A DNA stretch of 35,522 nt from Oscillochloris sp. ZM17-4 (lineage in GTDB: Bacteria > Chloroflexota > Chloroflexia > Chloroflexales > Chloroflexaceae): NCBI RefSeq assembly GCF_019599295.1, contig NZ_JAIEWN010000054.1, positions 1 to 35,522 on the forward strand. Reading direction: 5' to 3'. This document shows positions 2,489 through 15,350 of this stretch, piece after piece (within the stretch, counting starts at the first letter, position 1; each line of letters starts with the position of its first letter). The notes under the pieces are model-generated. The model ran no database searches and was not told the origin of the DNA. It saw only the letters and a list, made by a program, of their open reading frames with translations. Position numbers and translations under genes: made by a program.

Positions 2489-2641
2489 ATGAACTGCTGC
2501 CACCACTGCCGCGACGCCGAGAACCTGTTCGACCGGACCGGCGACCTCGTCAGCCTGGCCGGTCTGCTCGGGCATAGCTCGACGGATACCTTTTCGTTTG
2601 CGTGCGTGCGTATGGAAAAGGAGCGAGGATGTCTGTATTGA
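2489..2641 (+). pseudogene. Decayed C-terminal tail of a tyrosine recombinase
   Basis: The short frame from ATG 2489 contains DRTGDLVSLAGLLGHSSTDT, which matches the conserved C-terminal box of tyrosine recombinases/XerCD-type integrases (GDL...LLGHSS..TT..Y). A preceding H-x-x-R (HHCRD) sits where the second catalytic Arg is expected. The catalytic Tyr is gone: the following stretch reads FSFACVR. No catalytic core exists upstream. I read it as a remnant of a lost integrase; the box is seen directly, the history is inferred. It overlaps the yjbQ start in another frame. Confidence 0.45.
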
Positions 2642-3087
2642 AGCGGCTTGCGATACGCACCCACACCCAGGAGTGCCTGGTCGACATCACCGACCAGGTC
2701 GCGCAGGCGGTGACGGATTCAGGCGCATCCGAAGGCACCACATTGCTGTATGTGCCCCACACGACCTGCGGGATCACCATCCAGGAGAACGCCGACCCTG
2801 GGGTACAGCACGATATGCTGATGGTGCTGCGGCGGATCTACCCACGCCAAGATCCGGGCTACCGTCACATCGAGGACAACTCGGCCTCGCACCTGCAGGC
2901 CAGCACGATGGGCTTCTCGCACTTCGTCTTCGTGAGCGGCGGCCAGCTGGTGCTTGGCCGCTGGCAGGCGATCTACCTGGCCGAGTTCGACGGCCCGCGC
3001 ACCTCACAAGGTGTCACTTTTTTCTGGGGGCCGTCCCAATGCGGCAAAACGGCCCATGGGTGCGTGCCAGCACTATTGCTGCATTAG
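2629..3087 (+). CDS. yjbQ: YjbQ/UPF0047 family protein with displaced C-terminus
   Basis: 152 residues of the YjbQ (UPF0047, secondary thiamine-phosphate synthase-like) family. Family signatures are present: HTTCGITIQENADPGVQHD (residues 44-62), a His/Asn/Ser region HIEDNSASHLQ (80-90), LVLGRWQAIY and EFDGPR (119-124). The ATG at 2629 has AAGGAG at 2618-2623. After EFDGPRT the last 27 residues (SQGVTFFW... to LLLH) do not belong to the family: they come from a small inserted element. Joining the bases after the element restores REVLVKVLAD and a stop at 3197-3199, a 135-residue protein of normal length. Activity may survive because the catalytic region is intact, but the tail is foreign. Confidence 0.85.
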   Translation: MSVLKRLAIRTHTQECLVDITDQVAQAVTDSGASEGTTLLYVPHTTCGITIQENADPGVQHDMLMVLRRIYPRQDPGYRHIEDNSASHLQASTMGFSHFVFVSGGQLVLGRWQAIYLAEFDGPRTSQGVTFFWGPSQCGKTAHGCVPALLLH

Positions 3088-3154
3088 GACGCGCTCGCGA
3101 CGACCGCGTCGGCGCGGAACTGGGCAAAAACCGTAAGAAAGTGACACCTGGTGA
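3004..3154. mobile_element. 151-bp MITE-like element with terminal inverted repeats
   Basis: The left end TCACAAGGTGTCACTTTTTT (3004-3023) and the reverse complement of the right end, TCACCAGGTGTCACTTTCTT (3135-3154), match at 18 of 20 positions. GGCCCGCGCACC occurs exactly at both sides (2992-3003 and 3155-3166), a 12-bp target-site duplication. No transposase is encoded, so it is a non-autonomous element. A duplication near 12 bp is typical of some IS4-type transposases, but the parent family is not determined here. Confidence 0.85.
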
Positions 3155-3199
3155 GGCCCGCGCACCCGCGAGGTGCTGGTCAAAGTGCTCGCGGATTAA
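3155..3199 (+). repeat. Right target duplication and stranded yjbQ tail
   Basis: GGCCCGCGCACC (3155-3166) is the second copy of the target duplication. It is followed in frame by codons for REVLVKVLAD and TAA (3197-3199), the original yjbQ C-terminus, now downstream of the new stop at 3085-3087. Confidence 0.8.
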
Positions 3200-3215: not shown

Positions 3216-4418
3216 TTACGCAACTCTTTGATCAAACAGCTTTCCTAACAGGCGCTGACCGGCCTGCTGGATGTCGTCGTCCAGATCAAACACGACACTG
3301 CGGACGCGGATTGCGCCGATCCGCGTGTCGATCGGGCGCTCAGGCATGGTTGGATAGATAAGTATCGCCTCGGTGCAGCCGGTGATTTCTGCGTACGCAA
3401 CCACCTGGGCGATATCATCTGTCTTGACATCACGTTTGTACTTTGTATCGAGCACGATGAGCGCCTGCTCGGTTGCGCGATCGCGCAGCACCAGGTCGAT
3501 GACAAATGACATGCCGCCATGCCGACCGATAGCGTGTTGCTCCTGCTTCACGAGGCGCAGCTCGGGCGGTAGCTGGGTGCGCATCCATCCCTCGACAAAT
3601 CCCTCGAACAGGTTGGCCATGTCGACCAGAAATGGCAGCATCGCGCGATCGCCGCTCGTGTGATGCGGCCCGGCGGTATCGAGAAAAAAGTGACACAGGG
3701 CGTGCAGCGGAGCGTAGTCAGCGTTGAGCCGGTGGTAGCGCCGGCCCACGCAGGCCGCTCCTGACACAGGGGTTAGAGAGACCGCGCCCTGGAGCTGGCG
3801 GAACGCCTGATGGATAACCGGCAGCGCCCGCTCAGGCCGACACATGCCGCTGCGGCTGATCACGAACAGCGTCCAGGCCAGGATCTGGTTGTCATCGATG
3901 TCGGCGGTGTGCTCGTGATACTGGCACTCCAGGCGGGTATCCCACGGCCGGTTCGCCACCCGCCGCACATTCAGGCTCCCGCGTACCACGCTCAGCTCGT
4001 CGGTCTGCTCGACGTAGGCTCGGGCCAGCCCATCTCTACAGCGCCGCAGCACGCGCCGCGCCAGGGCCTCGGCCAACCGCTCGTAGAGCTCATTAAGGCT
4101 CTGCGCCTCGTACCACCCGTCCAAAAAGCGGAAACTCTGCTGCCCGTAGGCATACTCAAGCATTGCAAAGATGCTGCGTATCGGCACTTTTGGCAGCAGC
4201 GCGACGCTCAGCCCCGGGGTGAGCGGGATGTGGCCGACCGAGCCCTGGGCTGTGAGCCACCACTGGCCGCCCGTCGCCGGCGAAGGGAACTCGACCTGGA
4301 CCTGGTTGCTGTACTGCCGCCAGAGCAGCTCGCCCGCCGCGTCTGGCAGCTCCTCACGAGCCAGGCGGCGTGTCCGGTACTCCTCAAGGGCGATCACCTG
4401 GCGCCCGCCGGTGGTCAC
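3216..4418 (-). CDS. mcrC: McrC-family nuclease subunit
   Basis: 400-residue McrC, the nuclease partner of the McrB GTPase in modification-dependent restriction. The N-terminal half carries the McrC structural region (residues about 30-240). A PD-(D/E)xK nuclease follows: D308 in FVIDLVLRD, the D-x-K of VLDTKYK (D324, K326), and Q338 in AQVVAYA. All catalytic positions are kept. The GTG start at 4416-4418 overlaps the mcrB TGA stop (4415-4417) as GTGA. It is the last gene of the defence operon and converges on yjbQ. No clear terminator hairpin was seen between them. Confidence 0.88.
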   Translation of the reverse strand: MTTGGRQVIALEEYRTRRLAREELPDAAGELLWRQYSNQVQVEFPSPATGGQWWLTAQGSVGHIPLTPGLSVALLPKVPIRSIFAMLEYAYGQQSFRFLDGWYEAQSLNELYERLAEALARRVLRRCRDGLARAYVEQTDELSVVRGSLNVRRVANRPWDTRLECQYHEHTADIDDNQILAWTLFVISRSGMCRPERALPVIHQAFRQLQGAVSLTPVSGAACVGRRYHRLNADYAPLHALCHFFLDTAGPHHTSGDRAMLPFLVDMANLFEGFVEGWMRTQLPPELRLVKQEQHAIGRHGGMSFVIDLVLRDRATEQALIVLDTKYKRDVKTDDIAQVVAYAEITGCTEAILIYPTMPERPIDTRIGAIRVRSVVFDLDDDIQQAGQRLLGKLFDQRVA

Positions 4419-6565
4419 GAGATTACCCGTGCAGCAATCTTCTCCCAGCGGAACCGCTCGAAGACCTCGCGCCGGTCGAAGAAATACTCCTCTAGGTAGG
4501 GCTCGATCTCCATGCGCCAGATATCTTCGAGCTCGTCGGCGAGCTGCGGGCGCATGAAGAAGCTGATGCCCACCGCGTAGCCCGGGTCGCCGATCTCGCG
4601 ATTGACCTGCTCGAGGATCGCGATCAGGCCTGCGGCATCCGTCTCGCGCTCGTGCTGATACCTGAGGAGCACTGCATAGTTGGGCTGGAGCGGCAGGAAG
4701 GCGAAGCGCCGGCGCAGCGCATGGTCAACCAGGGCGATCGAGCGGTCGGCGGTGTTCATGGTGCCGATGATCCGCACGTTGGCGGGGATCGAGAGCACCC
4801 CGCCCCCAGCGAGCGGCAGCGACTGGTCGCGGTACTCCAGCAGATACATCAGCTCGCCGAAGACGCGGGCCAGGTTGGCCCGGTTAATCTCGTCGATGAT
4901 CAGGACGCAGCTATCGGTAACTGCCTTTGCGCGAGCGCAGAAGTCGAGGAAGCGCCCCGGCACCATCGGGTAGCTCAGGCTGCCATCCGCACGGGATTGA
5001 GGGCGGATGCCCTGGATGAAATCCTCATAGGCGTAGGCCGGATGAAACTGGACGAGCTCGATGAAGCCGACGCCACCGCCGACCAGGTGGCGGGCGAGCC
5101 GCTGGGCCACGAAGGTCTTGCCGGTTCCGGGTGGGCCATAGAGCACCGCCTGGCCCTTGCGTTCGAGGGCGCGCAGCCAGCGAGCGAGCTCGGCCTCAGA
5201 GGTGCCGGTGTCGCGGGCGCAGTCGGTCAGTGGGTACATGGGGTTGACCCCATGCGATGGCGGCGGCAGGGGGCCGCGGTCCACGAGCTCTTGCAGTGCG
5301 GCCCACTCGTTTAGGTTGACCCGGAAATTCGTCCCGTTCGGCGCACGGAGCACATGCATCTGCTGGAGCGCCGGGTGCTCGATGAGCGTTGCCCGCCGGA
5401 TCGGCTCAGGGAGGATCTGCGTGTAGCGAAAGGGCACCTGCCACGCTGTGGCCCTCTGCCCCGGCTCAGCGCTGAGCCAGGCCGGGATATCCTCGGGCGC
5501 GTAGGTCTGCTCGGCTGGCTCCCCCGTGAGCTCGCCGAACGCATACATGCCAGCGTCTTGCCCCGCCTGCCAGAGCAGCACGCGGTCGCCCGCTTTCATC
5601 TCATCGCGGTAGCGGGTGACCGCCCAGTCGTCGTCGCTGCCAGGCGCGATGCTGCGCACGTGCTCCGCCAGATCGTAGAAGCGCGGGTTGGCCTGGAACA
5701 GCCAGACGCGCTGGGCGCTATCGGTAAGGGTCTCGATCGCAAACCCAAGGCGGTCCAGGATGCGGCGCGCCTGGCTGCTGTTGAACTGTGTCGCGCCGGT
5801 GGCGATACGCACGATCTCTTTGACCGGGTAGCGTTGCCCCTCCCAGGAGATCACGTAGCGGTAGGTCGGATCGTGCTCCCAGTTCTCCCAGGAGGGCATA
5901 TCGCGGCGCTCGGCGTCGAAGGTGGTGCAGGCGGCCTCCACATCCTCGCGCCGCACCCGGTCCAGGCCATCGCTGATGGTAGGCCCAGATACGTCGTAGA
6001 TCGGCTCAGGGATGACATGCCCAAGCTCCTCATGCAGGTACTCCAGCACGCCGGGGTTGTGGATCGCGCGCGAGAAGGGATGCGCCTGGCGCATGCTCGC
6101 CGCCGCCGCACGTGTAAAGGCGATGCTGGCGCTCCGGACGAGCGGCGCCAGCTCGGCAAATTCGTCGACCGGTATCGTGCAGGTGAGCGCAGCGGGATAG
6201 CTTTTGAATGTCCACCTATCCCAGTTCGCAAGCTGCTGTAGCCGCGGCAGATCTTCTGGGTTAAGCTCGGCGCGCTCCAGCACCAAACCAATCCCGTTGC
6301 GGCTGATCTCATAGACAAAGTATGCCCCCGCCACCAGGCGGATGCGCACGCGGTCGCGAACAGTAACGGCCCAGCGGTTGGCACCGACGGCGTGCGCCAC
6401 GCCGATCAGGTGGGCAAAATAGGTGAGCGCGAGCGCGCGGGTCTCGCTCTCAGGGATGAGGCTCTCTACCAGGCGGCGCATGTCCTCCGCTGCGAGGCGG
6501 TATGTACCCTGCGAGATTTCCTCCTCATCGAGCGCGTCTTCGTGGTCAAGGGGCTCATCGCTCAT
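4415..6565 (-). CDS. mcrB: McrB-family GTPase with EVE modified-base reader
   Basis: 716 residues. Residues 1-240 are an unrecognised N-terminal region. Residues about 240-280 (RYPVKEIVRIATG...FNSSQARRILDRLGF) resemble a winged-helix-like module found in modification-dependent restriction proteins. Residues about 285-420 are an EVE domain (RVWLFQANPRFYDLA, then AGDRVLLWQAGQDAGMYAFG), a PUA-like fold that binds modified cytosines. The AAA+ GTPase has Walker A GPPGTGKT (477-484), Walker B LIIDEINR (555-562) and the McrB signature MNTADRS (603-609). The start at 6565 was preferred over an in-frame ATG 18 bases upstream because AAGGAA lies just before it. It should form rings that translocate DNA and drive McrC cleavage. 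Confidence 0.88.
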   Translation of the reverse strand: MSDEPLDHEDALDEEEISQGTYRLAAEDMRRLVESLIPESETRALALTYFAHLIGVAHAVGANRWAVTVRDRVRIRLVAGAYFVYEISRNGIGLVLERAELNPEDLPRLQQLANWDRWTFKSYPAALTCTIPVDEFAELAPLVRSASIAFTRAAAASMRQAHPFSRAIHNPGVLEYLHEELGHVIPEPIYDVSGPTISDGLDRVRREDVEAACTTFDAERRDMPSWENWEHDPTYRYVISWEGQRYPVKEIVRIATGATQFNSSQARRILDRLGFAIETLTDSAQRVWLFQANPRFYDLAEHVRSIAPGSDDDWAVTRYRDEMKAGDRVLLWQAGQDAGMYAFGELTGEPAEQTYAPEDIPAWLSAEPGQRATAWQVPFRYTQILPEPIRRATLIEHPALQQMHVLRAPNGTNFRVNLNEWAALQELVDRGPLPPPSHGVNPMYPLTDCARDTGTSEAELARWLRALERKGQAVLYGPPGTGKTFVAQRLARHLVGGGVGFIELVQFHPAYAYEDFIQGIRPQSRADGSLSYPMVPGRFLDFCARAKAVTDSCVLIIDEINRANLARVFGELMYLLEYRDQSLPLAGGGVLSIPANVRIIGTMNTADRSIALVDHALRRRFAFLPLQPNYAVLLRYQHERETDAAGLIAILEQVNREIGDPGYAVGISFFMRPQLADELEDIWRMEIEPYLEEYFFDRREVFERFRWEKIAARVIS

Positions 6566-6614
6566 GATCTTCCTTTGCTTCATACAGCCGGAGGTATAGC
6601 CTCCATCGGCGGAT

Positions 6615-7418
6615 CTACTGGGTCTTCTGCAAGGTTCCCTCGGCGATCATTCGCTCGAACTGGGCGGCGACGGTGGCCGGCTCGGGGCCGCCGGAGATCA
6701 GCACGCCCAGCTCCATATTCAGGCTCAGGGCGTAGTCGGTGAGGTTGGCGCTGGAGAGGAAGAGGGTGCGCCGGTCGGCGACGGCGCACTTGGCGTGGAG
6801 CGTGCCGGTGTGGCCGCTCTCGTCGGTGGGGCGGCGGTCGCTCGGCCAGATGTAGATCTGTGCGGCGCTGGCGACCGCCGGCCCGAGGGCGCGGATGGTG
6901 TCGTAGGCCATCTTCTGGCCGCTCGGCTCCGGGGCCTCGATGCAGATGCGGATGACGACGCCACGGGCGGCTGCGCTCATGAGCGCCTCGATGACGGCTG
7001 GAATCTTGTAGACGGCGAAGCTCACGATGAGCAGCTCCCGGTGCGCACTGCGGATGACCTGGAGCAGGGCCTGGTCGGTGCGGCGCATCGAGACGCCCGC
7101 CGCCAGGGGGCCGGTCCAGATCAGCTCGACGCGCTGCTCAGCCCGGGCGCTGCGGGTGGCCGCCGCTGCGCTCAGCAGGGCCAGGGCCACACGCGCGCCG
7201 GAGATTGCGGGAGCCTGCTGCGCCCAGGCGTCGAGGAAGTCGCTGGCTCTGGCGCGCTGCGCGGGCTGGGGGATGGCCTGGAGCGCGGCCGCCCGTGCGG
7301 CATCGCGTGGCCCGGCGGCGTGCTCAATCGCCCGCGCGAGGGCGTGGATGCTCCCTGGTGGGAGCTCCGCTGCCAGGCGCACGGCGGCGTCGATGATGAT
7401 GAGTCGCTGCTCGTCCAT
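6615..7418 (-). CDS. drmC: DISARM PLD-domain protein DrmC
   Basis: 267 residues. The N-terminal helical region is followed by a phospholipase D-type domain with one HKD motif: H208-x-K210-x4-D215 in LHAKCAVADRR, then the SSANLT and NMELG boxes. One HKD per chain implies dimerisation, as in other single-motif PLD nucleases. In DISARM, drmC is the PLD member of the drmABC core; its exact role is less settled than that of drmA and drmB. It lies 6 nt after drmB and 49 nt before mcrB. GAGG precedes the ATG by four bases. Confidence 0.88.
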   Translation of the reverse strand: MDEQRLIIIDAAVRLAAELPPGSIHALARAIEHAAGPRDAARAAALQAIPQPAQRARASDFLDAWAQQAPAISGARVALALLSAAAATRSARAEQRVELIWTGPLAAGVSMRRTDQALLQVIRSAHRELLIVSFAVYKIPAVIEALMSAAARGVVIRICIEAPEPSGQKMAYDTIRALGPAVASAAQIYIWPSDRRPTDESGHTGTLHAKCAVADRRTLFLSSANLTDYALSLNMELGVLISGGPEPATVAAQFERMIAEGTLQKTQ

Positions 7419-7424
7419 GCGGCC

Positions 7425-9299
7425 TCAGCTGAAGAAGGCGAGATCCTCGCGCTCGACGGTCGGCACCAGCACGGAGCGGTCGAGGTAGCGGTTGCCGCGC
7501 TCGCACGAGGTCTCCGGGGCGAAGAGGCAGGCGTGGCATGCGGCCGCGTGGACGGTAGTGCCGCGCCGGCTGGGCTCGTGCTCGGCGCAGAGCGGGTCGG
7601 AGGCGCACTGGGCCGCGTCGCGCATGGCCGTCTGGAGGTGCCGGCGCAGCTCGTCCGGCTCGCCCAAACCCACCAGGCCGCCCAGCGTGCCCTCGCTGTC
7701 CGGGGCGGCCGTGTAGATCAGCACGCCGGCCATCGGCTCGGGACGGCCCTCGGTCTCGTTCGGGCCGCGCGCGTAGATGCGCTCGCGCAGGCTGGCCGCG
7801 TTGTAGCCGCACTCCAGCACCAGCTGGCGCATCAGGACGTGGGCGAAGGTGTGCAGCAGGACGTAGCGCATGCCGGGGAAGTCGGCCTCGGGCGGGGTGA
7901 TGCGCCGCGCCCGCCGCCAGCTGGTGTGTGAGGCGAGAAACTGCTCCTTGCGGCGCTCGGTGGTCGCGCCGGTGAGCCAGCCCTGGATGGCGGCCTCGTC
8001 GAACTGGATGAAGATGCCCTCCCCGCGCACCTCAGCGGCGGGCACCCAGGTTGGCGCGCGTCGGGCGAGTGGCATCCGTCGCTGGCCGCTGTCCTCCGGG
8101 TTCACGCCCAGCTCGCCCGGCGCGTCGATCCGCGTGAAGCCGATCAGCGCCCGCACCTCGCGCAGCCGCTCGACCAGCACCACCCGCGCGATGCGCGGGT
8201 CGAATCCCTGCGGCACCGCCACCTCGCGCAGGCGGAAGTCTTTGGAGGGCGTGTGACTGGCGGGGTGGGCGAACTGCTCCCACTCGCGCCCCTTGAGGTC
8301 GGCGGGGTCGTCTTGCTCGCCCTGCTGCTCCTGCCCGCGCCGCTGCTCAATCGCCTGAAAAATCTCGCTGTCGCGGTAGCCGATGAAATCGCCGAAGGGG
8401 TTGGGCGTCATCGCGCGCATCAGGGTGATGAACTGCTCGCTGGGCACCTGCTGGAGGCTGGTCCACTTGCTCTCGATGAGCTGGGCCAGCTTGACCGACT
8501 CGGTGGGGATGGCCAGGGCGATCACGGTGTCGCCGAACCAGAGGTTCGAGGCCCCGAGCAGGATGGCCCGCACCTGCTGGTCGCAGCCACGCGGGTCAAA
8601 GTCGCGCAGGTGCGGGCGTCGCCCGCGACACTGCGGCATGCGCGCCCGGCCCTCCTCGCCGAACGCCTCCGAGAGGCGGCGAGTTTTCTTGCAGGTGTCG
8701 CAGCTCAGGACGAGGTCGCGGGCCTCGCCGCTGGGGCCGAACTCAATCAGGCGCAGCTGGGTCGCGCAGTCGGTGGGGCCGCGATGCACAAACTCCACCC
8801 ACGGGAAGTCGTCGAGGTGCCCGTGCTCGCAGGCCACCAGGAAGCGCGCCGGGACGACCACCGGCTCCTTGGCCTTCTCGCAGCCGCTGTGGACGTAGCG
8901 GGTGCGGTCGGGGTGGTAGGGGTCTTCCTTGGGGGTGAACAGGCCGGTGCTGAGCGGCGAGAGCTGCTGGCAGCGCGGACAAAGCATCCAGCGCGGGAAG
9001 AGCGCGACCGGAATGCCGATGCGGGCCAGGGTGCTGAAGGGGTCAACCGGCCCGCTGCCCGGCGGCAGGGCGGGCGGGGCGAGGAGTTGCTGCACCTGGC
9101 TGCCGAGCTGGGCGCGCACCGCGCGCAGCAGGCGCTCCTCGTCGATCACGCGGGAGATGCCGCCGTCCACCGTCCAGTCGTCCAGGCCCATGACCAGCAC
9201 CGAGAGGTGCGGCAGATCGACGAGGGCGCCCACGCCGTAGCTGAAGATGACCTGGCTGGGGCGCACTTCGCCGACGCGGGGATGTTTCATCGGTGGCAT
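7425..9299 (-). CDS. drmB: DISARM DUF1998 protein DrmB
   Basis: 624 residues. The family start RPSQVIFSYGVGALVDLPHL (residues 13-32) is clear. Zinc-type Cys/His clusters follow: CPRC (107-110), C140, CEHGHLDDFPW (157-167), CDTC (200-203), C224 and C239. A C-terminal C-x2-C...C box (ACHACLFAPETSC) resembles the DUF1998 zinc region. DrmB forms the DrmAB complex that senses unmethylated, 5'-overhang DNA in studied DISARM systems. The ATG overlaps the drmA TAA stop by one base (TAATG at 9297-9301), which argues for fixed stoichiometry with DrmA. Confidence 0.9.
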   Translation of the reverse strand: MPPMKHPRVGEVRPSQVIFSYGVGALVDLPHLSVLVMGLDDWTVDGGISRVIDEERLLRAVRAQLGSQVQQLLAPPALPPGSGPVDPFSTLARIGIPVALFPRWMLCPRCQQLSPLSTGLFTPKEDPYHPDRTRYVHSGCEKAKEPVVVPARFLVACEHGHLDDFPWVEFVHRGPTDCATQLRLIEFGPSGEARDLVLSCDTCKKTRRLSEAFGEEGRARMPQCRGRRPHLRDFDPRGCDQQVRAILLGASNLWFGDTVIALAIPTESVKLAQLIESKWTSLQQVPSEQFITLMRAMTPNPFGDFIGYRDSEIFQAIEQRRGQEQQGEQDDPADLKGREWEQFAHPASHTPSKDFRLREVAVPQGFDPRIARVVLVERLREVRALIGFTRIDAPGELGVNPEDSGQRRMPLARRAPTWVPAAEVRGEGIFIQFDEAAIQGWLTGATTERRKEQFLASHTSWRRARRITPPEADFPGMRYVLLHTFAHVLMRQLVLECGYNAASLRERIYARGPNETEGRPEPMAGVLIYTAAPDSEGTLGGLVGLGEPDELRRHLQTAMRDAAQCASDPLCAEHEPSRRGTTVHAAACHACLFAPETSCERGNRYLDRSVLVPTVEREDLAFFS

Positions 9300-12200
9300 T
9301 AGTCCTCCTCGTCCTCGGTCGGCGCAGCGGCAGCGGGCGCGCCCTCCGTCGCGTACTGCCAGCGCTGGCCGCCCCCGTCGAGCCCGCCGTCCTCCAGGAT
9401 GAGGTTGACGGTCGGCTCCACGTCGCGCAGCGAGTTTAGGCAGGCGAACAGCGACCAGTCACCATCGCCGGGCGGGCTGAGCAGGCCGACGGTATCGCCG
9501 CCGGCGCGCTGGTAGCCGAGCTTGGCGCTCACGGTGGCGGCGATGCGGGCCTGCCAGTAATCGAGCCGCTCGGTGATCGCGCTCTGGATCAGCCCGGCCC
9601 GCTTCGGCCCGTCGATGGCCTCGGCCCGCCGCACGATGGTGGCCACGGCCTCCGCCATGCCCTCGTCGCTGCGGCTGAGCCGGCCCGCGCCGAGGTTCGG
9701 GTTGTAGGTCGGCGCGCCGATGCGGGCCAGGGCGACCAGCACCCCGCTCAGTCCGCGGTCGAGGGCGCGCGGCGAGAAGGGCGTCACCGAGAGGGCCTCG
9801 ACGTGCTGGTAGAAGGTGGCGTGGTAGTGGGTGAAGCGCTCGTAGTGGCTCAGGTCGCGCGGCCTGGCCCAGTTGTAGATCGTCGCGACGAGGCCGGGGT
9901 GCTGGCGGCCGACGCGGCTGGTGGCCTGGATGTACTCGGCGGTGGATTTGGGCTGGCCGGCGACGAGCATCAGGCCCAGCCGGCTGACATCGACGCCGAC
10001 CGAGATCATGTTGGTCGCCAGCAGGACATCGACGGGGAACTGCGCTGGGGCGCGCTTGCGGCCCTTCTCCGGGCGCAGCGCCGGGTCGAAGGGTGCCTCC
10101 AGGCGATCCAGCATCTCGGGGATGTCCGCCGCGCTCAGGCGCGAGGTCAGCTCGCGGACGCTCCAGACGTCGAGGAAGCGCGTGGGCAGGCCGCGCTGGT
10201 GCATCTTTTTCAGGCGGGTGCTGACCGTGTCATCGACGGCGCGGCGCATCGCGGCCAGCTCGCGCAGGGCGTTGAAGTAGCCCACCAGGGTCATGTAGGG
10301 ATCCGCGCCGCGCATGGCGGTCTCGTAGAGCTGCTGGGCGGCGGCGAGGAAGGCGACATACGACTGAATGAGCGCGGTCTTGTGGCGGATGCCGGGCGCG
10401 CAGATACCCAGGTAGCGTCGGCCAGGATAGGCGTCGCTGGGCGGGCGCGGGATGGCGAAGCAGGTGTCGCCGGCGTCGAGGCCCTGGGGTGGGAAGATCG
10501 CAACGTTGCGCAGGAACAGGCTATGCACCTGCTGGTCGGCCCGGCGGATCGTCGCGGTGGAGGCGATCAGCTTGGAGCGCACCCGCAGGCCGTCCAGCTC
10601 CCAGCTGGCCAGCTGATCGACCGCTGCCTCGTAGAGCCCGACGAGCGTGCCCAGCGGCCCGCTGATCAGGTGCAGCTCGTCCTGGATGATCAGATCGGGC
10701 GGGCGCAGCGGGGTCGCCGGGAGCACGCGGGCGGGGCCGTGCCTGCCGCCCTTGATCGCGGGGTGGCTCTGGGCCGGGTGGTCGGTGTCGGGGGTCAGGT
10801 AGCCGTGCCGCTCGCAGTAGCCATTTACCTGGCCGAAGAGCGCGGCCACCCGCCCGTTCCAGGGCATCTGGGCGAACTTGTCCACGGTGGCGATCAGCAG
10901 GGCGGGCAGGCGGTGGTAGATCTCCTCATCGACCACGAGCACTGGCAGGCCCTCGCCGTCGGATTGGCGGGCGTTGAAGGGGCAGTGGTTCATCAGGCTG
11001 CCGCAGTACATGAGCACGCGGCTGCGGCCCTGCTCGGGCAGTTCGGCGGTGAGGTCGCGCCCAGGGTCAATCGGCGTGCCGCACCAGGGGCAGTGCTTGA
11101 GCTGGGCGGGGCTGCCGCCGCCTGCGTTGCCGCCCTTCTTGAGCTGCTTGATCGCCTCGTCGGCGTCCTCGACCCAGTTGGGCGTGGAGCGCTGGCCGAC
11201 CCACAGGCCGAGGCGGAAGGGCTCGTCGCCCCAGCGGGCCGGGTCCTCGCGGCGGATGACCTCGCAGGCGCAGATCAGGGTGGCGGCGCGCTGGAACTGC
11301 TGGAGGGTGAGCAGGCGTAGGGTGTAGCGCATCAGCACGGCCACGCCGGTCATGCCGCTGCGCCCGCCGACCACGCCCTGGAGCCGCCGGATGCCCAGGG
11401 TGTAGGCGGTCAGGCCGAGGTAGGCTTCGGTCTTACCGCCGCCGGTGGGGAACCAGAGCAGGTCGGCGAGCGCGGTGGCCGGGTCGCCAGCGCGGTCCTG
11501 CGTCGGGGTGGCGCGGTCGGGGTGGCGCGGGTCGGTGAGGGCGGGCAGGTTGATCAGCATGAATCCGAGCTGGAAGGCCCGCCATGCGTGGTCTTCTGGC
11601 CGGTCAAAGTCTGCGGGGGCCTTCTTCTCGCCCCGGCGCACCGAGGCGGCGTAGAGCGAGCGGGTGCGCTGGAGGGCCATGGCGCGGTTGGCGAAGCGGA
11701 AGGCGCTGGCGGCCTGCGGGTTGGTGTCGAGCAGCGTGATGCCCTCGCGGATGCGCGCCAGGGCCAGCCGGCAGTGGCGCAGCGACTCTTCTCCGGCGCT
11801 GATAAACGGCACCAGGTCAGGCGTTGGCGTCTGGAGCCGGGCCTCCTGGCGGGCGATCCAGTCGGCGTAGACGGCGGCGAGCGGGGCGAGGTGTGCGGCG
11901 AACTGGCCATCGGGCACAGCGGCCAGCGCGGCCATATCGACGGTCAGATCCGCGAGGCGGGCGAAGCCGGGGTCGGCGGGCGTCGGCTGGGTGGTCTGGG
12001 GTACGTCATAGGTCGGCAGCACCACCGTGCGCACGGCGACCGCGCTGTCGTGGATGCGCTGGCCGTCCGCGTCACGGGCGGGGGTCGCATCGACCGCGAC
12101 GCCGTGGCCGACCGCGAACTCGACCTCGTTGCGGTAGAGCATCGCGGTGCGCTGGTCCTCCAGGTCGAGCTGGTCGCCGGGGAGCGGGCGGCGGCGGAAG

Positions 12201-13198
12201 ATCGCGGCGTGGTCGGGCGCGGTGATGGACAGCTCGGGCTGGAAGACCCAGGCGCCATCCTTGTTGCGGGGCGGCTCCTCCTGGCCGTTGACCAGGAAGA
12301 GGGTGACGATCCACGCGCCCAGGCGCTTGCGGATCACGCCCTGGAGCGTGACGCCGGGATGTGCCTCGCTGATCGCCTGCGGTGCGATCTTGCCGTGGCG
12401 CAGCGTGATCGCGGGCAGGGCGACGACCACCGGCGTGCGCTTCCAGGGGTGGTGGTAGCTGCCGTCGGGCCGCCGGAAGCGATCTTCTTTGATCTCGACC
12501 CGCGCATAGTGCCCCCAGCGCACCGTCACCGTGATCGCGGTGGCCTCCAGGGCGACGGCGAAGGTCAGGCCGATGGAGGAGGGCAGCATGGCGGTGGTCG
12601 CCTTGGGCGGCGGGGCGTCGCTCGCGCCGTCCTCGCCATCGCTGCCGCCGAGGTCGCCGTCGTCGTACTCCTCGGGGATGCCGCTGCTGGCGCGCGGGGC
12701 GAGCATGCCGACCAGATAGCGCCCGCGCACGGTCGCCTCGTCCAGCACCTCCTCGGGGCCGCCCCAGGGGCCGAGCAGCTGGCGGACGACCATGTCTTCG
12801 AGCTGATCGCGCAGGTTGAGGGTCTGGGGTTCAGGGCTCAGGGTTCGGATGACGCTCGGTGATGGTTCGGGTGATGATGGTGTCACACGAATCTCGCTTT
12901 GCGCATCCTCCTGACCCCTGACCCCTGACCCCTGACCCCTGCCATGTCGTCGGTCGAGCCAGGCGATGAGCTGCTCGCCGAGGGCGGGGCTGAGGGTGGT
13001 CGCGTCGATCACCTCGCCGAGCTCGGCGATGTCCCAGCTGGCGGGGATGGCGGCGAGCAGGAACTCCAGCTGCTCAGGGGCCAGCGACTCAACCCCGCTG
13101 CCGTCGAGGGCGATCTCGCCACGGGCTAGGCGCCCGCCGATCTCGGCGATTGCGCCCGGCCCACGTTTCAGAATGCTAGAAAGCTTGATGCGATTCAT
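9299..13198 (-). CDS. drmA: DISARM helicase DrmA
   Basis: 1299-residue SF2 helicase. Walker A is FPTGGGKTEAYLGL (583-596), the DExx box is IIQDELHLISG (837-847), motif III is STATI, and the C-terminal lobe has LLATNMISVGVDVSRLG followed by QATSRVGR. A Cys cluster (HCPWCGTP, YCGSLMNHCPF; residues 702-741) sits between the motifs and probably binds zinc. DrmA with DrmB loads on DNA and blocks or degrades unmethylated phage genomes. Its ATG overlaps the preceding UvrD-fusion stop by four bases (ATGA, 13195-13198). Residues about 86-128 form a Ser/Pro/Gln-rich linker translated from G-rich heptad repeats and are probably not needed for the fold. Confidence 0.92.
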   Translation of the reverse strand: MNRIKLSSILKRGPGAIAEIGGRLARGEIALDGSGVESLAPEQLEFLLAAIPASWDIAELGEVIDATTLSPALGEQLIAWLDRRHGRGQGSGVRGQEDAQSEIRVTPSSPEPSPSVIRTLSPEPQTLNLRDQLEDMVVRQLLGPWGGPEEVLDEATVRGRYLVGMLAPRASSGIPEEYDDGDLGGSDGEDGASDAPPPKATTAMLPSSIGLTFAVALEATAITVTVRWGHYARVEIKEDRFRRPDGSYHHPWKRTPVVVALPAITLRHGKIAPQAISEAHPGVTLQGVIRKRLGAWIVTLFLVNGQEEPPRNKDGAWVFQPELSITAPDHAAIFRRRPLPGDQLDLEDQRTAMLYRNEVEFAVGHGVAVDATPARDADGQRIHDSAVAVRTVVLPTYDVPQTTQPTPADPGFARLADLTVDMAALAAVPDGQFAAHLAPLAAVYADWIARQEARLQTPTPDLVPFISAGEESLRHCRLALARIREGITLLDTNPQAASAFRFANRAMALQRTRSLYAASVRRGEKKAPADFDRPEDHAWRAFQLGFMLINLPALTDPRHPDRATPTQDRAGDPATALADLLWFPTGGGKTEAYLGLTAYTLGIRRLQGVVGGRSGMTGVAVLMRYTLRLLTLQQFQRAATLICACEVIRREDPARWGDEPFRLGLWVGQRSTPNWVEDADEAIKQLKKGGNAGGGSPAQLKHCPWCGTPIDPGRDLTAELPEQGRSRVLMYCGSLMNHCPFNARQSDGEGLPVLVVDEEIYHRLPALLIATVDKFAQMPWNGRVAALFGQVNGYCERHGYLTPDTDHPAQSHPAIKGGRHGPARVLPATPLRPPDLIIQDELHLISGPLGTLVGLYEAAVDQLASWELDGLRVRSKLIASTATIRRADQQVHSLFLRNVAIFPPQGLDAGDTCFAIPRPPSDAYPGRRYLGICAPGIRHKTALIQSYVAFLAAAQQLYETAMRGADPYMTLVGYFNALRELAAMRRAVDDTVSTRLKKMHQRGLPTRFLDVWSVRELTSRLSAADIPEMLDRLEAPFDPALRPEKGRKRAPAQFPVDVLLATNMISVGVDVSRLGLMLVAGQPKSTAEYIQATSRVGRQHPGLVATIYNWARPRDLSHYERFTHYHATFYQHVEALSVTPFSPRALDRGLSGVLVALARIGAPTYNPNLGAGRLSRSDEGMAEAVATIVRRAEAIDGPKRAGLIQSAITERLDYWQARIAATVSAKLGYQRAGGDTVGLLSPPGDGDWSLFACLNSLRDVEPTVNLILEDGGLDGGGQRWQYATEGAPAAAAPTEDEED
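12815..12943. repeat. G-rich heptad and tandem repeat insert within drmA
   Basis: Four exact copies of GACCCCT run from 12911 to 12938. Degenerate copies of GGTTCAGGGCTCAGGG lie at about 12827-12845. On the coding strand the block is translated as a low-complexity linker (GQGSGVRGQE ... PSSPEPSPSV) that interrupts an otherwise conserved N-terminal region without breaking the frame. Confidence 0.7.
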
Positions 13199-15318
13199 TG
13201 TTCGTCCCTGGCCCAGGTCGGCGGCTGGAGCGGCTCCAAGAAGGGCGAGAGGGCATCGCGGGAGCCGCAGACAAGTAGTGCGCGCATGGCCCGCGAGCAG
13301 CCGACGAAGAACAGGCGGCGCTGCTCATCCTCCATCGCCGCCAGCTCATCGTCGGGATAGTCCGCGATCACGCGTGGGAAGCGCCCGGCGTCCAGGCCGA
13401 CCACGGCGACAAACGGGAACTCCAGCCCCTTGGCCGAGTGGATGGTGATCACCTTGACCTGCTGGGCGGTGATGTCGATCTGCTTGCCCGACTGGAAGAC
13501 CGCCGGTAGTCCCAGGTCGCTCAGGCGCCGGGCCAGGTTCTCGCCGGCATGTTTGCTCTGGCAGAGCACCGCGCCGCTGTGGGCGGGCAGCCGGTAGCGC
13601 TGGGCCGCCGCGCGGAAGAAGGCGCGGATCGCCTCCGCCTCCTCGGCGGTGTCGCCCACCAGCGTGATCGTCGGAGGGTCGCCCTGGTGCGCGGACGGCT
13701 CCTGGCTGAGGCTCTCGGCGTCGCCCGCCGCCGACCCGGTCAGAATGTCGGCGCAGGCGGTGATGATCTGCGCGGTGTTGCGGTAGTTTCGCCTGAGCAG
13801 GATCGTCCGCCCGGTCATGCGCAGGTCGGTGTGGACCTGACTCCAGCTGAAGCCGCGCTGGTAGAGCGACTGGGATGCGTCGGCGGTGAGGTAGACGTGC
13901 GCCAGCGAGGGCACCAGGTTGAGCAAGAAGCGCAGGGCCACCGGTGAGAGGTCTTGGGCCTCGTCGATCACCAGGGCCTGGTAGGGCTTCGGGTCGAGGG
14001 TGGCCGCGACCTCCAGCGCCCCGCGCCGGATCTGCTCGTTCAGCACGACGCCGTTGTCGCGCATCAGCGCGCGCCAGTGGACGTAGACTGCCCAGATCGC
14101 CGCGCGGACCGTCGCTTTGAGCGGGGTGCGCCGACCACGCCGCTCGACCGCCAGGTACGCCTCGGCGCTGCGGATGTCCCACGCCTCGATCACGCTCAGG
14201 AACTCCTGGAGCAGATAGTCGCGGCCGAGCTTCTCCAGCGCCGTCTGCCGCACCTGCCGGTCGAAGGCGTTGGTGGCGGGGATCTCCGCATCACGGAGCG
14301 CCGCGTCGAGCAGATCCAGGGCCTGACCCTCGGTGGCGAAGCTGGGCCAGCCCGACCCCTTGGCGAAGTAGTGAGCGGCCAGGCTATCGACCGTCGTCAC
14401 CTTCACGCCGCACTTCGCCGGCGGCTTGCCGAGCAGGTGGGTGAGCAACTGCTCGGAGTAGCCCACCAGGGCGTTGGTGTAGGTCGTGAAGAGGATCGGG
14501 GTCACGCCCTGGTCAATCAGGCGCTGCACGCGGTAGAGGGCCAGGGTGGACTTGCCGGTGCCAGGGCCGCCCTTGACCAGGGTCGGCCCGGCGCGATCCT
14601 GCGCGACGAGCTCGCGCTGCTCGGGGGTGAGGCGCAGCAGGAAGCTGCCCAGATCCTCCTCGGCGAAGCGCTCGACGGCCTCCGGCTCGGGCAGCACGAA
14701 CTCGGGCTGCGCGGCGATGGCGTCAAGGGCGCGCGGGAAGAGGTTGTCGAGAATACGGCTCAAGAAGCGCTCGGGGATCGTCAGCTCCAGCAGATCGTCC
14801 TCGGTGTGCGCGGCCAGGGCGGATGGCCGGTGGGCGACCGGGATCTGCCACTGGGCCAGCAGTTCATCGGTGAGGATGATAGGCAGGGGTGTCGGGATCG
14901 GGGGGTGGGGGTCGGGGATCGGAATCTCATCAAGGTTGGGGGCCGTGGTAAACGAACTGCCCGATCCCTGATCCCTAATCCCCGATCCCTGCGGCTGCGG
15001 CTCCAGCGCATCCGAGTCGGGAGCAACCGCAGGCAGCACCACATCCGGCAGGTCATCCGCAAAGGTGCGCTCGTCGCGCTTGCGCACGCTGAGCAGCTTG
15101 ACCCAGCCCTGGCCGATGCTGTAGAAGACCCGGTAGTCGCCGACGCGGGCGCGGTAGACGTTGGCAAAGCCCTTGAGCTTCTTGGCGTCGCCGTGGGCCG
15201 AGTGCGGCTCCTCAGCCAGCACCTTCAGCTTCTGTCCGACGAGCTTGCTGACGTGCTTCGGCAGGCCCAGGGACTCGTTGTAGAAGGTCGGGGTGAAGGA
15301 AAGCTCGTACGCTGGCAT
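13195..15318 (-). CDS. RelE/ParE-like domain fused to UvrD-type helicase
   Basis: 707 residues. Residues 1-90 match RelE/ParE-type small ribonuclease/toxin folds (KKLKGFANVYRARVGDYR, then KLLSVRKRDERTF). Residues about 108-148 are a repeat-derived linker. Residues about 225-700 form an SF1A UvrD/Rep-type helicase: GGPGTGKST (250-258), LVIDEAQDLSPV, RRNYRN and ITIHSAKGLEFP. The ATG at 15316-15318 with AGGAGA just upstream was chosen over an ATG 30 bases earlier. It is the first gene of the drmABC-mcrBC run and overlaps drmA as ATGA, so it is very likely co-produced with DISARM, although UvrD proteins are not part of the core definition. The toxin-like part may serve as RNA/DNA binding rather than as a toxin. 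Confidence 0.85.
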   Translation of the reverse strand: MPAYELSFTPTFYNESLGLPKHVSKLVGQKLKVLAEEPHSAHGDAKKLKGFANVYRARVGDYRVFYSIGQGWVKLLSVRKRDERTFADDLPDVVLPAVAPDSDALEPQPQGSGIRDQGSGSSFTTAPNLDEIPIPDPHPPIPTPLPIILTDELLAQWQIPVAHRPSALAAHTEDDLLELTIPERFLSRILDNLFPRALDAIAAQPEFVLPEPEAVERFAEEDLGSFLLRLTPEQRELVAQDRAGPTLVKGGPGTGKSTLALYRVQRLIDQGVTPILFTTYTNALVGYSEQLLTHLLGKPPAKCGVKVTTVDSLAAHYFAKGSGWPSFATEGQALDLLDAALRDAEIPATNAFDRQVRQTALEKLGRDYLLQEFLSVIEAWDIRSAEAYLAVERRGRRTPLKATVRAAIWAVYVHWRALMRDNGVVLNEQIRRGALEVAATLDPKPYQALVIDEAQDLSPVALRFLLNLVPSLAHVYLTADASQSLYQRGFSWSQVHTDLRMTGRTILLRRNYRNTAQIITACADILTGSAAGDAESLSQEPSAHQGDPPTITLVGDTAEEAEAIRAFFRAAAQRYRLPAHSGAVLCQSKHAGENLARRLSDLGLPAVFQSGKQIDITAQQVKVITIHSAKGLEFPFVAVVGLDAGRFPRVIADYPDDELAAMEDEQRRLFFVGCSRAMRALLVCGSRDALSPFLEPLQPPTWARDEQ
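14875..14997. repeat. Low-complexity repeat insert in the RelE-UvrD linker
   Basis: Units of the type GGGATCGGGGG (about 14895-14925) and GATCCCTGATCCCTAATCCC (about 14963-14990) are the same general class of short G-rich tandem repeat as in drmA. The translated product is a Gly/Ser/Pro/Ile-Pro-rich linker (QGSGIRDQGSG ... IPDPHPPIPTP) between the RelE-like and helicase parts. Confidence 0.6.
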
Positions 15319-15350
15319 GAGTCTCTCCTGGGCAGTCTGGATCTTCACTC

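Follow-up and report, generated by a model that had tools for sequence, protein, structure and literature searches.

The yjbQ locus and its neighbourhood

The window, here the whole 35,522 nt stretch of Oscillochloris sp. ZM17-4 DNA that was analysed, comes from contig C133 of a 6.69 Mb draft genome. Towards its left end lies a yjbQ gene that is interrupted near its 3' end by a short element with inverted termini, behind which follow a displaced remainder of the gene and, on the opposite strand, a defence island spanning positions 3216-15348 (Table 1). Upstream of yjbQ, a region at 2344-2600 that is shared with Chloroflexales bacterium ZM16-3 resembles, by eye, the remnants of other genes, including a start like those of MNCC..-type proteins and an LLGHSST..-like recombinase end, which suggests that this stretch is a patchwork.

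Table 1. Coordinates of the features at the interrupted yjbQ gene and in the adjoining defence island
Feature	Position in window	Strand	Remarks
yjbQ, interrupted	2629-3087	+	UPF0047/secondary thiamine-phosphate synthase YjbQ; TIGR00149, Pfam UPF0047
Left copy of target duplication, GCCCGCGCAC	2993-3002		Exact repeat; length agrees with L037 and L039
153 bp MITE	3003-3155	+	Copies elsewhere in genus mates; sole copy in own genome
Left terminal inverted repeat, CTCACAAGGTGTCACTTTTTT	3003-3023	+	18/20 against right end; ends also found on IS copies
Conserved core site, CGTTTTGCCGCATTGGGACG	3032-3051	-	Common to MITEs with other ends and to promoter-linked sites elsewhere
Internal palindromic core of MITE	3032-3091	+	ATGC..GCAT arms kept in ten aligned cores
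Right terminal inverted repeat, CTCACCAGGTGTCACTTTCTT (read on - strand)	3135-3155	-	18/20 against left end
Right copy of target duplication	3156-3165		Exact repeat
Displaced native yjbQ 3' end (rest of ...REVLVKVLAD, TAA)	3166-3199	+	Unbroken in G030, G033 and G037
McrBC-type pair	3216-6583	-	Defence island
DrmC of DISARM	6615-7418	-	Defence island
DrmB of DISARM	7425-9299	-	Defence island
UvrD/GajB-like helicase	13195-15348	-	Defence island

Structure and limits of the inserted element

The insertion falls at codons 122-125 of yjbQ, where the first-pass annotation had placed it; with the start codon at 2629, codon 122 begins at 2992. An exact 12 bp repeat, GGCCCGCGCACC, occupies 2992-3003 and again, 163 bp on, 3155-3166, and had been read as the duplication flanking a 151 bp element at 3004-3154. 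Both the element and the exactness of the repeat stand, but the limits required correction: the ends CTCAC...GTGAG agree with those of copies in two relatives (L037 and L039), and hence the element is 153 bp in length and the target duplication 10 bp, with the two outer bases of the longer repeat, one on each side, matching by chance. The terminal inverted repeats are imperfect, and re-comparison of both ends recovered the 18/20 matches originally reported. When all 10 bp direct repeat pairs in the window with a spacing of 60-3000 bp were surveyed (n = 876), the inner flanks of the pair bounding the element were found to be inverted copies of one another at 17 of 18 positions, with any other pair reaching at most 12.

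The whole element is predicted to fold as a single long hairpin (-76.4 kcal/mol, z -5.8), and the 153 bp contain no transposase-coding ORF. Short length with inverted ends, a target duplication, the lack of a transposase, dispersed copies and ends shared with an IS are all found, and with high confidence the sequence at 3003-3155 is a MITE inserted into yjbQ. Comparison with Rfam gave nothing at the gathering threshold and two chance matches at E values of 0.3-0.8. Covariation in the hairpin is weak, with changes on both sides in three of 14 pairs and an unfavourable covariation term, and for this reason no conserved RNA is claimed.

Uninterrupted yjbQ genes in relatives

The proposal that excision of the element with one copy of the duplication restores the ending REVLVKVLAD is borne out by relatives in which this tail is unbroken. 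From the duplication onward, the window's tail is identical to that of G033 (30/30 bases), and over 38 bases it matches those of G030 and G037 at 95% and 87%, respectively. Empty sites are present in these relatives, and yjbQ is likewise uninterrupted at the same point in ZM16-3, where it is 95.6% identical to the window's gene over codons 1-121, with 14 synonymous and two non-synonymous codon differences. As the tail of the ZM16-3 gene, RELFVKVLPD, and the DNA downstream both differ from those of the window, it does not represent the exact pre-insertion allele. Relatives thus harbour intact genes, and the element at other positions, rather than the same interrupted sequence with no intact yjbQ. 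Contig 41 of ZM16-3 (L042, 1501-1541) carries an orphan 41 bp yjbQ 3' end that starts at the first base of the duplication.

Copies of the element and a cognate IS

The first-pass annotation proposed that further copies of the ends might be found in the same genome; none was detected, nor any further copy of the MITE, in the 182 contigs of the draft, and this single copy argues against a recent burst there. The genus mates compared include uncultured Oscillochloris sp. bins as well as ZM16-3, and copies of the MITE were identified at unrelated sites in G004 (91% identity), ZM16-3 (G002; 90%), G001 (88%) and G008 (86%), these loci being L037, L038, L039 and L045. With the ends taken as CTCAC...GTGAG, exact 10 bp duplications flank the copies on contig 57 of G004 (L037; GCCCACGTCC) and contig 48 of ZM16-3 (L039; CCATGAAGAC), both written for the complementary strand relative to the element's orientation in the window. 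None of the copies examined elsewhere is fused to a recognisable gene, and a literature text search on MITEs and insertion sequences in Chloroflexales returned nothing on the topic.

The accompanying suggestion of an IS with the same ends held for relatives but not for the strain's own genome. Ends reading CTCACCAGGTGTCACTTTTT, exactly or with one mismatch, are located close to contig ends in the genus mates G004 and G005 and in Ca. Chloroploca Khr17 (G021); the IS ends in these three genomes are identical to the MITE ends over 18-20 bp and are joined to transposase sequence, the adjoining part being C-terminal (..DAWQQSLFTLAVAWQNRLRTFDRALPVFWFLYM in G004) or, on contig 262 of G004, N-terminal. 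A complete IS of approximately 1.2 kb, with perfect 17 bp ends, TCAAAAGGTGTCACTTT, that are near-identical to those of the MITE and an intact transposase, is present in G062 (L103). The 182-contig draft of the strain itself yielded no cognate IS; multicopy IS are often lost from drafts, and the absence may reflect the assembly. That the MITE arose from the IS by internal deletion is not supported: in the stretches read, the two have only the outermost 20 bp or so in common.

In its single-ORF DDE transposase the IS resembles the IS4 family (PMC2266710; NF033591, PF01609): the spacings D61D and D104-105E, conserved in all seven complete copies (104 in one), lie within the D(60-110)D(100-150)E range of the family. 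Target duplications, of around 10 bp in the family, are 10 bp at three copies of the MITE, and the complete IS copies L100, L102 and L103 have no exact duplication. The protein from G062 passes the Pfam DDE_Tnp_1 model (25.5 against a cut-off of 23) but falls short with the NCBIfam IS4 model NF033591 (132.8 bits against a cut-off of 152), and the Y(2)R(3)E(6)K motif that defines the family (PMC2266710) is incomplete, reading G-R-E-Q in 7/7 complete copies through replacement of Y by G and K by Q. With only the R and E retained, the element is termed IS4-like and is not assigned to IS4.

Consequences for YjbQ

The yjbQ reading frame enters the MITE, adds 27 residues beyond T125 and terminates at a TAG (3085-3087), giving a fused ORF of 152 aa in which residues 126-152 are encoded by the element. 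The product is still recognised by TIGR00149 (129.3 bits, cut-off 67.75), over model positions 2-124 of 132, and by Pfam UPF0047 (127 bits). It is nevertheless without the eight C-terminal positions of TIGR00149, intact relatives reaching positions 128-130, and the native residues lost, the last ten, are conserved in the family and in phmmer comparisons align at the C-terminus of homologues with solved structures, among them 1xbf and 1vmh. An AlphaFold model of the fused protein alone was discarded (pLDDT 33). The gene is present in ten of the 41 family genomes, and the window holds the only near-complete copy in its own genome; the sole other match there is a 5'-truncated fragment ending GPRTCEVLRAD (contig 104, 46662-46811; L040).

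It had been put forward that the MITE supplies yjbQ with a new C-terminus. This is accurate for the frame, which does end in 27 MITE-encoded residues, but may not extend to function: with the ten conserved residues lost and the gene dispensable in the family, a truncated or dead gene would explain the locus at least as well. Judged from sequence, the most likely consequence would be a loss or weakening of YjbQ function, which would be tolerated since yjbQ is dispensable in the family. Because the residues lost are conserved, the gene is the sole near-complete yjbQ in the genome and most relatives lack it, disruption or tolerated loss is considered likelier than acquisition of a useful new C-terminus. 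The codon differences from ZM16-3 give no sign of decay as yet, and with so few non-synonymous changes a functional gene and a recently killed one are not separable.

Origin of the interrupted gene

The whole is very probably explained by a non-autonomous MITE, which would have been mobilised in trans by an IS4-like transposase acting on the same ends, and which inserted into codons 122-125 of yjbQ with duplication of 10 bp of target. Translation would then continue for 27 codons into the element and halt at its internal TAG, so that the last ten native residues are swapped for an unrelated tail and YjbQ is likely lost or weakened. It is unlikely, if conceivable, that the fused 152 aa protein is instead expressed and active, with its 27-residue tail tolerated or even useful: the frame is open throughout these codons, the core of yjbQ is conserved with few non-synonymous changes, and C-terminal tails encoded by MITEs are known in Coxiella (PMC5896051), yet such a protein would have to function without the part of its C-terminus that is aligned in solved homologues, from a transcript that would form a strong hairpin where the reading frame ends. 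The lack of recognisable gene fusions at the other MITE copies examined, and the dispensability of yjbQ, also argue against it.

Explanations without transposition fare worse. Were yjbQ a recombined hybrid whose rearrangement junction coincides with the element, it would be understandable that synteny with ZM16-3 covers no more than about 650 bp on the left side and breaks off immediately to the right of the site, and that the orphan 3' end in ZM16-3 begins precisely at the duplication. This is very improbable and largely refuted by the exactness of the 10 bp duplication, by the match of the right-hand tail to uninterrupted relatives and by the occurrence of the MITE, with 10 bp duplications of its own, at unrelated sites. 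That a single MITE copy in a draft of 182 contigs could be an artefact of assembly, or a chance inverted repeat, has next to no probability and can be regarded as refuted, since the element is present, bounded by the same ends, in other, independent assemblies and its flanking repeat pair is unique among the 876 in the window.

A core site shared with other elements and recurring beside predicted promoters

The MITE core is found, collinear, in elements with quite different ends, TTCAAAGGGTTTCACC (G039, G040 and G019), as well as in elements of approximately 340 bp in G070. In the latter genome, which belongs to another family of the order, there has been an expansion of these MITE-like sequences, which have ends CTCAACAGGTGTCACTTT and are in some cases arranged in tandem (L090-L098 and L116). 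Allowing at most one mismatch, the 20 bp core CGTTTTRCCGCATTGGGACG occurs in 9/41 family genomes, many of the matches being MITEs themselves, and a reversed control pattern had no matches in the same 41. Outside the MITE, the strain's own genome contains core sites at L008, L159 and L160 (at 1501), the last with two mismatches, and these lie directly upstream of almost identical, sigma-70-like predicted promoters, TTGACAGGCGCTCTAARTTGTGCTACAATA, with TTGACA/TACAAT-like motifs, of accessory genes; the site at L160 adjoins a terminase-like ORF. Core sites on contig 338 of G008 and in G033 and G036 are without the TTGACAGGCGCTCTAARTTGTGCTACAATA promoter. These arrangements raise the idea, quite unlikely on present evidence, that the MITE may be a mobile operator spreading a putative protein-binding core site, with the insertion in yjbQ as one of its landings.

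Precedents and significance

Small palindromic repeats are found inside protein-coding genes in Rickettsia. The insertion described here is likewise a palindromic repeat within a coding gene; the Rickettsia palindromic elements stay in frame within their genes, whereas the yjbQ frame stops inside the MITE. A closer parallel is QMITE2 of Coxiella burnetii, a MITE of 150-190 bp with target duplications of 7-11 nt and about 50 copies per genome (PMC5896051). QMITE insertions in Coxiella affect the 3' ends of annotated genes, and in the Dugway strain QMITE2 encodes the C-terminal 33 residues of EnhC (PMC5896051). Likened by description, both are short MITEs with a target duplication that alter the 3' end of a gene and encode a C-terminus, and they differ in that around 50 copies per genome contrast with one here and in that the hosts belong to different phyla. 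In view of the QMITE2 precedent, the kind of event is already known and ordinary; the element and the host gene are new.

The locus constitutes a clean case of a MITE changing the end of a protein, for which relatives provide empty sites together with sister copies of the element and its cognate IS, in a group of poorly studied phototrophs of the filamentous Chloroflexales type. If the core is a real binding site, the spread of MITEs would be linked to promoter control in these bacteria.
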